From assembly GCA_004297465.1 (NCBI GenBank), contig SCUB01000019.1, positions 254,501 through 318,500 on the forward strand: DNA of 64,000 nt. The letters are read 5' to 3'. The notes under the pieces are model-generated. The model was not told the origin of the DNA. It searched no databases and was given only the letters and a program-made list of their open reading frames with translations. This document shows positions 31,173 to 61,086 of this stretch, piece by piece (within the stretch, counting starts at the first letter, position 1; every line of letters begins with the position of its first letter). Source of the stretch: Xanthobacteraceae bacterium (GTDB taxonomy: Bacteria > Pseudomonadota > Alphaproteobacteria > Rhizobiales > Xanthobacteraceae). Position numbers and translations under genes: made by a program.

Positions 31173-31904
31173 CTAGCGCACGGCGCCGTGGGGCGGCTCG
31201 GCGGCAACCTGCTTCAGATAGCCTTCGATGTCGGTGCGCGGGCCGAGTTCGCGTTCGAGCTTGTCGATGGCGTCCTGCGCGCCGGGCGGCAGCTTGTGGG
31301 CGATGCCCTTGTGACAGTCGATGCAGGTCATGCCTTTCTTGAAGCCGTCCTGATGCTTGTCGGCGGCGCGTTTTTCCTGCACCGAATAGTCCATCTGCAC
31401 GAAGTTGTGGCAGTTGCGGCATTCGCGGCTGTCGGTGGTCTTCATGGCGCGCCACACGTTGCTGGCGAGCTGGGTGCGCTTGGCGTCGAATTTCTCGCGC
31501 GAGTCGACGCTGCCGAGGAAGTGGTGCCACAGCTCGTTGGAGGCCTGCACCTTGCGGATCATCTTGTGGGTCCAGTCCTTCGGCACGTGGCAGTCCGGGC
31601 AGGTGGCGCGCACGCCCGTGCGGTTGGTGTAGTGCACGGTCTGACGGTATTCACGGTACACGTTCTGCTCCATCTCGTGGCACGAGATGCAGAACGTCTC
31701 GGTGTTGGTGGCCTCCACCACGGTGTTGAAGCCGCCCCAGAAGATGATGCCGGCAACGAAGCCGATGAGCAGCAGCGCGCCCAGCGAGATCGCGCCGGTC
31801 GGGCTCCAGAACCAGCGCCAGAAGCGGCCAAGCGGCCCGCGCTTCTTTCCGGTGTCGGGAGCTGCCGCCTCCGCCTGTGCGTCGTTCAGCGTTTCGGTGG
31901 TCAT
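31173..31904 (-). CDS. napC: NapC, tetrahaem quinol dehydrogenase
   Basis: Passes electrons from membrane quinol to NapB/NapA. 243 aa. One N-terminal membrane anchor (about residues 40-63, GAISLGALLLIGFVAGIIFWGG) and four CxxCH haem sites: CISCH, CPDCH, CRNCH and CIDCH, as expected for the NapC/NirT family. ATG at 31904 has GGGGA upstream; a TTG four codons earlier is possible. It is the last gene of the operon, 39 nt after napB, and is followed by a strong terminator. Confidence 0.96.
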   Translation of the reverse strand: MTTETLNDAQAEAAAPDTGKKRGPLGRFWRWFWSPTGAISLGALLLIGFVAGIIFWGGFNTVVEATNTETFCISCHEMEQNVYREYRQTVHYTNRTGVRATCPDCHVPKDWTHKMIRKVQASNELWHHFLGSVDSREKFDAKRTQLASNVWRAMKTTDSRECRNCHNFVQMDYSVQEKRAADKHQDGFKKGMTCIDCHKGIAHKLPPGAQDAIDKLERELGPRTDIEGYLKQVAAEPPHGAVR

Positions 31905-31943
31905 GTGATTCCCCAATTGTCCCTGTCGAACACCCTCGCGTTC

Positions 31944-32420
31944 TCACTTGACCTGCGTGGCGTCCTGGAAGGTGTTGCTGATCAGCGGCCTGGCGTCGGC
32001 CTGCGGCACATGGCACTGGGTGCAGAAGAACCGCGTGCCGGTGATCTTGTCGAGCCGGTTGCCCTCGCGGTCGTTGTAGTGCGTCTCCGAGACCTTCGGC
32101 GCGCCGGCCTTGGTGTTGGCCGGCCAGTCGTGGCAGGTCATGCACTGGTTGTAGTCCTTGGTGATCTGATAGCCGTCGATGCGGTGCGGAATGAGCGGCG
32201 GCTGCTGCCGGTAGGAACGGTTGAACATGCCGTCGGCCGGCATCTCCTGCTTGGTGACGGCGGGCGCCGGGTTGATGTCCTCGATCCCGACCTCGCCGCG
32301 CAGCGACTTGAGCGGGGAAGCCTGCTGCGCGTGGCCCGCGACCGTCGCTAGTCCGATGGTGAACAGCGCCGCGAGCGTCGCCGCGGCCAGTGTTCCGCCA
32401 AATCGCCGAAAGTCAGTCAT
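31944..32420 (-). CDS. napB: NapB, dihaem cytochrome c subunit of periplasmic nitrate reductase
   Basis: 158 aa. Signal peptide [20 protein letters not shown] to GHAQ. Mature part with NapB signature DGMFNRSYRQQPPLIPHRI and two haem sites, CMTCH and CTQCH, plus distal histidines. It receives electrons from NapC and delivers them to NapA. It starts with a 4-bp ATGA overlap with the napH stop, and GGAGG precedes the ATG. Confidence 0.96.
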   Translation of the reverse strand: MTDFRRFGGTLAAATLAALFTIGLATVAGHAQQASPLKSLRGEVGIEDINPAPAVTKQEMPADGMFNRSYRQQPPLIPHRIDGYQITKDYNQCMTCHDWPANTKAGAPKVSETHYNDREGNRLDKITGTRFFCTQCHVPQADARPLISNTFQDATQVK

Positions 32421-33379
32421 CGTTGCCCTCCATCGGTGCAAAGGTCGTTCATTGAGGTGTTCCCGGGTCCGTCCGCGCCGGCCGCATCGAGCGTGCGGTC
32501 GAACCGGTGGGTGAAGACGAAAACGCGCTCCGGGCACACGTCGGCGCAGCGGCCGCACGCGGTGCAGTCGCCCGAGAGGATGACCGGCCCCGGTCCGTGG
32601 CCCTCGCGCAGCGCCGGGGTGATGACGTGATCCTCCGGGCAGACCACGTAGCATTCGAGGCAGTCGTCGCAGCGGGCGCGGCCGCGCGCGGAAACGCGCA
32701 TGAGCGCGGCGCGGCCGATCAGGCCGTAGAACGCGCCGACCGGGCAGACATGGCCGCACCAGCCGTCGCGCACCACGAACAGGTCGAACACGAAGATGGC
32801 GGCGACGAGCCACAGCCCGAACAGCGAGCCGAACACCAGCGTGCGCCACAGCGCGGTGATCGGATTGACCAGTTCCCAGGCGATGGTGCCGGTGAGCGCG
32901 GCGACGATCAGGATCATCGCCAGCATCCACAGCCGGATCGAGGACTTCACCGGCCCGCCGCGCGCGATGCCGAGGCGGCGGCGCAGGTAGGCGGCGAGAT
33001 CGGTCACCGGATTGACCGGGCACACCCAGCTGCAATAGGTGCGCCCGCCGAGCACGAGATAGACGGCGAGCACGATCGCCGCGCCAAGGAGCGCGGTCGC
33101 CTCCGGCCAGTGCCTTGCTCCGAGCGACTGCGCCAGCACCAGCGGATCGGTCAGCGGCAGCACGTTGAGCGTGAGGCTCGAGGCCAGCGTGCCCTTGGCG
33201 ATCCAGAAGCCGAACAGAGGACCGGTCAGGAACAGCGCGAGAAAACCCAGTTGCGCGGCGCGCCGCAGCACCAGGAAGCGGTTGGCGGTCCACCAGCCGT
33301 GGCGGGCGCGCGCGGCGCGGCCGGGAATGGCGGCGCTTTTTGGCGGGTGCCTTGCGACGATGGTTCTGGCGGCGGTCAT
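32417..33379 (-). CDS. napH: NapH, membrane iron-sulfur quinol dehydrogenase
   Basis: 320 aa, about four to five membrane helices. Two cytoplasmic-side CxxxCP motifs ([18 protein letters not shown]) as in NapH/NosR, then a C-terminal ferredoxin domain with [12 protein letters not shown] and [12 protein letters not shown] for two [4Fe-4S] clusters. With NapG it forms an alternative quinol oxidising route to NapA. ATGA overlaps on both sides (napG and napB). [13 protein letters not shown] chosen as start at the overlap; the frame is open further upstream. Confidence 0.95.
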
Positions 33380-34140
33380 GGCGATATCCCCGGCAGCCGC
33401 TTGGGCATCTCGATGAGATCGGGCACCAGCGCGCCGCCGGCCTTCTTCTTCTCCTCCCAGCCGAGCCGGTAGTGCTCGCCGATCTTGCCGCGGGCGAGCG
33501 CGGCCGGCAGCACCTTGATGGCGGCCTCCTCGAGCACGCACGATTTCTCGCACTTGCCGCAGCCCGTGCACTTGTCGGCATGCACGGTGGGTTCGAGAAT
33601 GGCGTGGCGGCCGGTGCGCTGGTTGTGGCGTTCTTCCAGCGTGATCGCCTTGTCGATCAGCGGACAGGAGCGGTAGCAGACGTCGCAGCGCAGGCCGAGG
33701 AAATTAAGGCAAGTGTCGCGCGACACCAGTACCGCGATGCCCATCTTGGCGTCGTCGATGTTGGTGAGGCTCTTGTCGAGCGCGCCGGTCGGGCACGCCT
33801 TGACGCAGGGAATGTCGTCGCACATCTCGCATGGCACGTCGCGGGCGATGAAATACGGCGTGCCGTGGGCCGGTCCCGCGCCGAGGTCGGCGAGCTTGAG
33901 CGTGTGATAGGGGCAGTCGCGCACGCACAGGCCGCAGCGCACGCAGGCCGCCTGGAATTTCTGTTCGGCGCGCGCGCCGGGCGGCCGCAGCGCGTTGGCG
34001 GGCAGCGCGCGCGACTGTCGCGCCAGCGCGACGAGGCCGACGCCGCCGGCGCAGACCACAGCCGCAGCGCGGGCGGACTCGTGCAGGAACTTGCGCCGCG
34101 ACAGCGCGTCCTTGCCAGTCATCGTGCTTTCGTCAGCCAT
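33376..34140 (-). CDS. napG: NapG, periplasmic ferredoxin-type subunit
   Basis: 254 aa. Tat signal [20 protein letters not shown] (twin arginine at about residues 15-16). Four [4Fe-4S] motifs: [43 protein letters not shown] and [11 protein letters not shown]. It takes electrons from NapH. The presence of NapGH together with NapC gives two quinol branches, as in E. coli, which may allow both menaquinol/ubiquinol-type donors to be used; the quinone type is not visible. Confidence 0.95.
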
Positions 34141-34170
34141 GGGAGTTGGCCCATCGGGATTGGGAAAATG

Positions 34171-34203
34171 CCGGTGCGGGGGAGGGAGGAGCCCCCGCAC
34201 CGG
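34171..34203. promoter_or_regulatory. GC-rich hairpin between napA and napG
   Basis: GCCGGTGCGGGGG-like arms (34170-34181 and 34191-34203) can form about a 12-bp stem around AGGGAGGA, in the only sizeable gap of the operon (78 nt). There is no T-run, so it is not a terminator. It could protect the 3' end of napA mRNA or mark a processing site, giving NapA in excess over GHBC. Confidence 0.5.
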
Positions 34204-34218: not shown

Positions 34219-36738
34219 TCAGGCGCTCTCCACCTTGCAGGCGCACTTCTTGAAGTCGGTCTCTTTCGAGATCGGGCAGGTGGCGTCGAGCGTCAGCTTG
34301 TTGACGAGCTGGCTCTCGTCGAAGAAGGCGATGAACACCACGCCGGAAGGCAGCTTGTTGCGGCCGCGCGTTTCGACGCGGGTGACTACCTCGCCGCGCC
34401 GGGTCTTGATCTTCACCGCCTGGCCGCGCCGGAAGCCGCGTGCCTGCGCGTCGTCCGGGTTCATGAACACCTGGGCATTGGGATAGGAGCGGTGCAATTC
34501 CGGCACGCGGCGCGTCATCGAGCCGGAATGCCAGTGTTCGAGCACGCGGCCGGTGACGAGCCACAGATCGTAATCCTGATCCGGCGATTCCGCGGCCGGC
34601 TCGTACGGGCAGAAGATGACGCGCGCCCTGCCGTCCGGCTTGCCGTAGAACTTCACGCCTTCGCCGGCCTTGATGTAGGGGTCGTAGCCCTCGCGGAAGC
34701 GCCACAGCGTTTCCTTGCCGCCGACCACTGGCCAGCGCAGGCCTCGGGCCTTGTGGTAGAGGTCGAAATCGCCGAGGTCGTGGCCATGGCCGCGGCCGAA
34801 CGCGGCGTATTCCTCGAACAGGCCTTTCTGCACGTAGAAGCCGAAGGCGCTGGACTCGTCGTTGTCGAAATCCCGCTGCAGCTGATCGAGGCCGAACTTG
34901 TTCACGGCGCCGTTGGCGAACAGCACGTCGTACAGCGTCTTGCCCTTGTACTCAGGCTTCTTGGCGATCAGCTCTTCCGGCCAGACCTCCTCGACCTTGA
35001 AGTATTTCGAGAACTCGATGGTCTGCCACAGGTCGGACCTGGACGCGCCCGGAGGCTTGACCTGCTGGCGCCAGAACTGGCTGCGCCGCTCGGCGTTGCC
35101 GTAGGCGCCTTCCTTCTCCATCCACATTGCCGTGGGCAGGATGAGGTCGGCGGCGAGCGCGGTGACCGTCGGATAGGGATCGGACACCACGATGAAGTTG
35201 TCGGGGTTGCGGTAGCCCGGATAGCCCTCGCCGTTCATGTTGGGCGCGGTCTGCATGTTGTTCGTGCATTGCACCCAGTAGGCGTTGAGCTTGCCGTCCT
35301 TGAGCATGCGGTGTTGCACCACGGCGTGATAGCCGATGTTGCCCGGCAGCGTGCCTTCCGGAAGCTGCCACAGCTTCTCGGTCATCTCGCGGTGCTTGGG
35401 ATTGGTCACCACCATGTCGGCGGGCAGGCGGTGGGCGAAGGTGCCGACCTCGCGCGCGGTGCCGCAGGCCGAGGGCTGGCCGGTGAGCGAGAACGGGCCG
35501 TTGCCCGGCTCGGAGATCTTCCCGGTGAGCAGGTGCACGTTGTAGATCATGTTGTTCACCCAGGTGCCGCGAGAGTGCTGGTTGAAGCCCATGGTCCAGT
35601 ACGACACGATCTTCTTCTTCGGGTCGGCGTAGAGTTTCGCCAGCCGCTCCAGCTTCGCCGGCTCGACGCCAGACAGCTTGGCGGTGAACTCAAGCGTGTA
35701 TGTGGAGACCAGTTCCTTGTACTGCTCGAAGCTGATGTCGCTCATGCCGGCGGGATCGACCGCGCCGTCCTTGCCGGCCTTGTGCGCGGCGTTCCTGGCC
35801 TTGATCTCGAGCGGGTGGGTCGGCCTCAGGCCGTAGCCGATGTCCTCCACGGTGCGGGCGAAGGCGACGGCCTTGTCGACGAACGCCTTGTTCACCGCGT
35901 TGTTCTGGATGATGTAGTTGGCGATGTAGTTGAGGATCGCCAGATCGGTCTGCGGCGTGAAGATCATCGGATTGTCGGCGAGCTCGAAGCTGCGATGCTC
36001 GAAGGTCGAGAGCACGTGCACCTCGCAGCCCGGATGGGTGAGACGGCGGTCGGTCAGGCGCGACCACAGGATCGGATGCATCTCCGCCATGTTCGAGCCC
36101 CACAGCACGAAGGCGTCGGCCTGTTCGAGGTCGTCATAGCAGCCCATCGGCTCGTCGATGCCGAAGGTGCGCATGAAGCCGGCGACCGCCGAGGCCATGC
36201 AGTGGCGCGCGTTGGGATCGAGGTTGTTGGTGCGGAAGCCGGCCTTGTAGAGCTTGGCGGCGGCATAGCCCTCCCAGATCGTCCACTGGCCGGAGCCGAA
36301 CATGCCGACGCCGGAGGGCCCCTGCTTCTTGAGCGCGGCCTTCCACTTCTCGGCCATCAGCTCGAACGCCTGGTTCCAGGTGATCGGCGTGAAGTCGCCG
36401 TTCTTGTCGAACTTGCCGTTCTTCATGCGCAACAACGGCTGCGTCAGGCGGTCCTCGCCGTACATGATCTTGGAGAGGAAGTAGCCCTTGATGCAGTTGA
36501 GGCCGCGGTTGACCGGCGCATCGGGATCGCCCTGGGTCGCGACCACCTTGCCGCCCTTGGTGCCGACCAGCACGCCGCAGCCGGTGCCGCAGAACCGGCA
36601 CACCCCCTTGTCCCAGCGGATGCCGTCGGCGCGCACCTGGGCCTGCGCCGGGGCGCCGGCCACCGGTACGCCGGCCGCCGCCGCGGTTGCGGCGATCGCC
36701 GCGGATTTGATGACGTCGCGTCGGGTTTGCTCCAACAT
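34219..36738 (-). CDS. napA: NapA, periplasmic nitrate reductase catalytic subunit
   Basis: Reduces nitrate to nitrite in the periplasm. 839 aa, standard. Tat signal [20 protein letters not shown]; [4Fe-4S] cysteines Cys47-x2-Cys50-x3-Cys54 and Cys82; molybdenum ligand Cys180 in [10 protein letters not shown]; MoCo-binding blocks [28 protein letters not shown] and [17 protein letters not shown]. Five nt after napD, whose product proofreads this Tat signal. Confidence 0.98.
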
Positions 36739-36743
36739 GGCTT

Positions 36744-37010
36744 TCAGGCCTCCTTGGCAACTGCGCCGGCGGTGTCGTGGTCCGGCTCGAAGTGGTGATA
36801 GACGAGGGCCGCGGCGACGACGCCGGGCGTGCGGTGAATCTGTTCCAGGCCGGACAGCGCCAGCGTGGATGCGGTGTCCTCAATGGTGACGATGAGGCGG
36901 CCGCCGTCGGCGGAGCCGTGCAGCTCGACGCCGCTGATCCGCGCCAGCGCGGCGGCGACGTCGGCGACGCAATCGGGTTTGGAATGAACGAGGACGCCGC
37001 AGATGTTCAT
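36744..37010 (-). CDS. napD: NapD, Tat-signal chaperone for NapA
   Basis: 88 aa, ferredoxin-like fold. [34 protein letters not shown] and [14 protein letters not shown] match NapD. It binds the NapA twin-arginine signal until the cofactor is inserted. Start overlaps the stop of the upstream gene by ATGA. It is notable that the upstream gene encodes a second NapD-like domain. Confidence 0.92.
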
Positions 37011-37414
37011 GCTGAAAGATCCTCCGTAGCCGTGACCATGGCCGCCGACAGCACGTGCGGCATGTGATTGAGCGCGAGCAGCACGGCATCGGCGCGCGCC
37101 TGAGGGGCGGCGACGACCATGAGGCCGCGCGGGTCGCTGGAATGGATGGCGGCGCCCTCGATGGTGGCGATCAGCGCGAGCGCGTCGGCGAGCCGTTCGG
37201 GGCGGGCGCGCACCGCGATGCGGACGGGGGCTTCGGCAAAGGCAACGGAGGCAAGGGAAGCAGGCGCCGGCTGGCGCGGCTTGAGCCACCTTCCGCTCAG
37301 GAACCGGCGGCGGTCGACGGCCCTCACGGCGGGAGAGAGCCTTCCGTTATCGGCGGCGCTGGAATCGGCCTCGCCATCGCTTGGCGCCGTGACGGAATCC
37401 GCTGGGGGGAGCAT
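37007..37414 (-). CDS. NapD-like protein with NapF-like N-terminus in the napF position
   Basis: 135 aa, first gene of the nap operon, in the slot where E. coli has napF. Residues about 34-48 read DRRRFLSGRWLKPRQ, like the N-terminal RRxxLxGRWRK motif of NapF. No Fe-S cysteines follow. Instead PVRIAVRARPERLADALALI, EGAAIHSSDPRGLMVVA and HMPHVLSAAMV align by pattern with the NapD in the next gene. So it appears to be a NapF-like head joined to a NapD-like fold. Translationally coupled to napD by ATGA. ATG 37414 chosen; an ATG 14 codons earlier adds Arg-rich sequence. Role in NapA maturation is inference. Confidence 0.75.
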   Translation of the reverse strand: MLPPADSVTAPSDGEADSSAADNGRLSPAVRAVDRRRFLSGRWLKPRQPAPASLASVAFAEAPVRIAVRARPERLADALALIATIEGAAIHSSDPRGLMVVAAPQARADAVLLALNHMPHVLSAAMVTATEDLSA

Positions 37415-37528: not shown

Positions 37529-37542
37529 TTGATGACCATCAA
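37529..37542 (-). promoter_or_regulatory. FNR/FixK box upstream of the nap operon
   Basis: Perfect TTGAT-GACC-ATCAA. TAGAGT at 37506-37501 serves as a -10 and predicts a start near 37494, so the box is centred about 41.5 bp upstream, the class II activation position. The 5' UTR would be ~80 nt. Confidence 0.85.
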
Positions 37543-61072: not shown

Positions 61073-61086
61073 TTGATTTGTATCAA
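61073..61086 (+). promoter_or_regulatory. FNR/FixK box upstream of ccoNOQP
   Basis: Perfect TTGAT-TTGT-ATCAA. TATGAAT at 61107-61113 can serve as a -10, giving a start near 61121 and a box centre at about -41.5. The 5' UTR would be ~50 nt. Confidence 0.88.

Follow-up and report, generated by a model that had tools for sequence, protein, structure and literature searches.

Two nap proteins close to the gene described here are NapD and NapF. NapD (PF03927), the Tat proofreading chaperone of NapA, binds the NapA signal prior to export (PMC4159696, PMC10609526, PMC3712460), and its contacts to the signal are made by the acidic residue 49, strand 4 around V75-Q79 and an acidic loop near residues 51-54 (PMC3712460). 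NapF (TIGR00402) is a cytoplasmic iron-sulphur protein that interacts with NapA, an interaction reported for E. coli NapF and cited as such in PMC4159696 and PMC10609526. Some nap operons have NapF and others do not, and its role is called open in a review, where its effect is described as marginal in some hosts and Paracoccus denitrificans is named as an organism without napF (PMC10609526). A third relative came out of our own survey, i.e. a NapD that begins with a NapF-type head and is found in alphaproteobacterial napEDABC operons without napF; we refer to it as headed NapD.

The locus under study lies in a window of 64,000 nucleotides, the whole stretch of DNA that we analysed, from a Xanthobacteraceae bacterium. 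A complete nap operon occupies positions 37414-31173 of its minus strand and consists of a gene that we call X (37007-37414), napD (36744-37010), napA for the catalytic subunit with its Tat signal (34219-36738), napG (33376-34200, NCBIfam NapG with 374.8 bits), napH (32417-33379, NCBIfam NapH with 391.9 bits), napB (31944-32420) and napC (31173-31916, Pfam Cytochrom_NNT with 260 bits). E. coli K-12 has the order napF, napD, napA, napG, napH, napB and napC, so that X, the first gene of the operon, sits in the napF slot of an otherwise E. coli-type arrangement, as the initial annotation had stated. The napD gene encodes an ordinary headless NapD of 88 aa (Pfam NapD, 83.4 bits) that matches the PDB entries 2jsx and 2pq4. 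The coupling of X to napD by an ATGA could also be confirmed: the stop codon of X and the start codon of napD overlap at 37010-37007 of the minus strand. A perfect FNR/CRP-family box, TTGATGACCATCAA, is found at 37529-37542, about 115 bases upstream of the X ATG, where 0.01 such boxes would be expected per window by chance, and boxes with one or two mismatches precede four of the five other X genes described below. A second perfect FNR-type box, TTGATTTGTATCAA, was observed at 61073-61086, distant from the nap operon.

X shares with NapF its slot, its adjacency to napD and its N-terminal RRxxLxGRW head, which is encoded at 37280-37315 of the minus strand. The head motif reads DRRRFLSGRWLK against SRRGILTGRWRK in E. 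coli NapF, and the head sequence of X is VDRRRFLSGRWLK. Heads of this type are present in 77 of the 83 NapFs that we surveyed. NapF has cysteines and a ferredoxin domain, whereas the 135-aa X product has neither and carries a NapD-fold domain instead. It is free of cysteines, as had been noted from the sequence, so the four [4Fe-4S] cysteine motifs are absent, and it has no match to the NCBIfam NapF family. There are two candidate starts for X, i.e. the ATG at 37414 and a GTG at 37327, five codons ahead of the RR. In four of the five other X genes an ATG lies 13-15 codons upstream of the head, so the first ~20 residues of the long form are doubtful.

The C-terminal part of X is related to NapD in fold and sequence, as the initial annotation had proposed. 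Residues 68-127 match the Pfam NapD family (PF03927) with 34.1 bits and an E-value of 3e-8, above the curated cut-off of 28 bits. In the AlphaFold model residues 61-130 have block-mean pLDDT values of 87-97 and are predicted to form strand-helix-strand-strand-helix-strand, a ferredoxin-type beta-alpha-beta-beta-alpha-beta fold, and the head and linker are unstructured. The top PDB match of the model is E. coli NapD 2jsx (E-value 0.0036, probability 1.00), with 2pq4 in third place. However, this support is not independent of the sequence match because the alignment given to AlphaFold, made up of X, the NapD of the window and NapDs from five fetched loci, already contained NapDs. By sequence X has no match in the PDB, unlike the neighbouring NapD, nor any in PHROGs. 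The Pfam match, the model, the 2jsx similarity and a table of aligned residues together place the NapD-like domain at X residues 64-127 (37034-37225, minus strand).

What separates X from NapD, besides the added head and linker and a separate NapD next door, is the loss of the residues that bind the NapA signal. All 52 headed NapDs and all six NapDs that adjoin an X gene have the acidic residue 49, which is missing from each of the six X proteins; Y/F76 and H/Q/E77 are likewise absent from 6/6 X. X has also lost the acidic residue 33 and H77. The signal-binding set (acidic 49, aromatic 76 and strand 4) is thus complete in 6/6 partner NapDs and in 0/6 X. With these acidic and aromatic residues gone, X is unlikely to proofread by itself. 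X is a headed, degenerate NapD paralogue, a member of the NapD fold family that we do not class as a proofreading chaperone.

The same X-napD-napA-G-H-B-C arrangement was found by genome searches in five further genomes of the same family (G103, G076, G160, G193 and G077). The six genomes span three genera, and in all of them the X frame is open, RRxxLxGxW is invariant, with R, R, L, G and W fixed in 6/6 proteins, the ATGA overlap with napD is kept and X adjoins a headless NapD. The six X domains form one clade with support 96/98. X is not a chance product, since five other genomes share its operon, its motif and its overlap, and its domains are of one clade. Within the family the mean identity is 65% for the head, 40% for the domain and 22% for the linker. 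Two pattern scans of named genomes, which did return six NapD loci, gave no X relatives, and none were found in plasmids. No full NapF was found elsewhere in the host genome, nor did a NapF pass the curated cut-off in any of the six X genomes; five of them give weak matches that score far under it, and the ones that could be placed fall in napG. A normal NapF was not seen in the operons of close relatives either: they have X or, in the sister clade of X operons on the NapA tree (L127-L129), a NapF reduced to 9 cysteines that retains the head RRSLFSAVL. More generally, nine reduced NapFs (L111, L127-L129, L138, L148, L156, L158 and L161) have lost about half of their cysteines, and the head is kept in 9/9.

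We scored the heads with a NapF profile against NapA and NapG signals, leaving out the RRxFL core that they share. The NapF profile gave the best fit for all six X heads and for all 35 non-redundant NapD heads. The glycine at +6 is present in 100% of X heads, 90% of NapD heads and 65% of NapFs, and a PP follows the head in 50 of 68 NapFs and 12 of 35 NapD heads but in zero NapA or NapG signals. We also considered the head as a Tat export signal, which is ruled out by the lack of a hydrophobic region after the RR motif: the median hydropathy of the best 12-residue stretch is -0.03 for X versus 1.78 for NapA and 1.99 for NapG.

We annotated 173 nap operons, 118 from Alphaproteobacteria and 55 from other groups, and recorded where the head sits. 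Among the 51 alphaproteobacterial operons with NapF the head is on NapF and none has a headed NapD; among the 67 without NapF, 58 have the head on NapD or X (Fisher test, 2e-24), where shuffled extensions would yield the motif in about 5 of 58. As operon counts overstate independence, we compared pairs on the NapA tree: of 21 independent pairs with a difference in NapF, 7-8 show the head going the opposite way and none the same way (p ~0.008). No NapF above the family cut-off was found in 23 genomes with a headed NapD or X, while it was detected in 5/5 NapF controls. What holds firmly is that no surveyed operon was found to combine NapF with a headed NapD. That operons without NapF have a headed NapD is confined to Alphaproteobacteria and is not always true there. 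A strict rule of this kind fails in nine alphaproteobacterial operons with neither protein and outside the class, where 32 of the 55 operons have NapF with a headless NapD and 22 have neither NapF nor a headed NapD. We left out L219, the sole headed case beyond Alphaproteobacteria, which adjoins a contig end and has an extension resembling the cut end of a NapF.

Headed NapD is the usual NapD of the alphaproteobacterial napEDABC operons without napF, with 52 such operons surveyed. An example is the NapD of Paracoccus denitrificans PD1222 (WP_011750940, annotated as chaperone NapD), which begins MREPDRTPIQRRDILTGKL. A protein with a NapF-type head on a NapD domain is hence not unique to X; it is common in these operons, and the peculiarity of the present operon is that its napF slot holds a second NapD, one with a head. 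No description of the transfer of the head to NapD or of the NapF/headed-NapD pattern was found in the open-licence literature that we searched, nor any experiment on the partner of the head. The observation made at X is thus part of a larger regularity across alphaproteobacterial nap operons, and both the structure and the pattern are well supported. Four other observations were made in the survey. Three napEDABC operons without NapF outside Alphaproteobacteria (L177, L187 and L229, the last from Cupriavidus necator H16) have a NapD that begins [RK]R[AS]IPI, which may be another kind of head or a worn one. L164:171-449 is an orphan NapD-like ORF with no nap genes nearby, and its genome also contains a headed napEDABC operon. 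The fragment L109:8228-8584, some 2 kb upstream of a headed napD, resembles a relic of napD, and in the napEDABC operon L079:4589-8954 napA reads in many broken pieces, frameshift-like.

Sequence comparison establishes the homology of X, the mutual exclusion of NapF and headed NapD, and the loss of the signal-binding residues; what the head does is our inference. We favour, with some confidence, the reading that X is a headed NapD paralogue which delivers the head in NapF's place from the napF slot, leaving proofreading to the neighbouring NapD. The head would be a portable peptide that docks in the cytosol, before Tat export, on the NapA precursor or on the complex of NapA with NapD; it probably acts on one of these two since it is common to NapF, headed NapD and X. 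X, which has no iron-sulphur clusters, may supply it instead of NapF, and the NapA signal peptide would be bound by the NapD encoded next door. The suggestion of the initial annotation that X unites NapF docking with Tat-signal proofreading fits the single headed NapDs better than X: each of them is the sole NapD in its operon and still has the signal-binding residues, whereas X is a second copy beside a normal NapD and has lost them. Several points count against X as a carrier of the head. The head is not always needed, given the 22 other and nine alphaproteobacterial operons without it; NapF itself is marginal in some hosts (PMC10609526); an origin by local duplication of the partner napD is not rejected (p-AU 0.164); and X evolves fast, with dN/dS about 0.5-1.0 versus 0.13-0.21 for napA, so slow decay is possible. 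NapH or NapE is unlikely to be the general partner of the head because the headed napEDABC operons are without napGH and the X operons are without napE.

The first alternative is that X is one subunit of a NapD heterodimer: its NapD-fold domain and the NapD beside it would form a pair on which the head is exposed. The translational coupling of X and napD in 6/6 operons, the intact predicted fold of X and its constant position beside a headless NapD are in line with this reading, but published work describes E. coli NapD as a small monomer that forms a 1:1 complex with NapA (PMC3712460, PMC4159696), and we regard such pairing as clearly less likely than delivery of the head by X.

X also raises the question of its origin. 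In the domain tree X is nested with 15 headed NapDs of napEDABC operons with support 99/91, these being its nearest relatives, while the partner NapDs of X group with the NapDs of napFDAGHBC operons. This position suggests that napF was replaced by a gene of the headed-napD type, and X probably originated as a headed napD of a napEDABC-type operon that moved into a napFDAGHBC-type operon; the headed NapDs remain in napEDABC operons, whereas X is in a napAGHBC-type operon. The other possibility is an origin in place, where a second copy of the neighbouring napD would have fused to the head of the resident napF, whose iron-sulphur part disappeared. This origin keeps some probability because the tree is built from 77 columns and the grouping of X with its partner NapD is not rejected (p-AU 0.164), and the NapF cut to 9 cysteines in the NapA sister clade and the NapF heads of napFDAGHBC operons that likewise end in GxW (L084 and L085) would agree with it. 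Nevertheless we consider it rather unlikely, as the grouping with headed NapDs is better by 20 in log-likelihood and the nearest headed NapDs also have a W following the head glycine.

A less likely alternative concerns the head itself, which could be a signal-peptide mimic that fills the NapD signal groove, in cis when headed NapD carries it and in trans when it comes from NapF or X, and helps to release the NapA signal. The head and the Tat signals have the motif [SD]RRx[FL][LI] in common, a NapD that carries the head suggests that the head works beside NapD, and the vestigial Tat-like N-terminus of NarG binds the chaperone NarJ (PMC4159696). However, of the NapA residues R6, K10 and A17 that bind NapD the heads keep the arginine only, and the position of K10, a K in 88% of NapA signals, is mostly T, S, R or G in heads. 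With this epitope mostly missing, simple mimicry of the NapA signal is disfavoured; the heads are also without the alanine-rich helix, and the X head is disordered in the AlphaFold model. It is least probable that X is a functionless gene in decay, retained only through its translational coupling to napD. Its high dN/dS, variable linker and lost binding residues point that way, but the frame of X stays open across six genomes from three genera, the core head residues do not vary, the fold is preserved, and X is the first gene after an FNR-type box.

Returning to X as the carrier of the head, many alphaproteobacteria without NapF keep the NapF head, which is then placed on NapD. X is a natural separation of functions, in which the head is retained and both the clusters and the signal-binding residues are gone. 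We tentatively speculate that NapF function has its durable core in this head, which would be a portable peptide for docking on the NapA precursor and would persist after the iron-sulphur clusters have gone. The head is found on cluster-poor NapFs, on NapD and on X, which may be a NapD relic that serves only as its carrier. A peptide of about 12 residues, rather than the four iron-sulphur clusters, thereby becomes a candidate for the key part of NapF.
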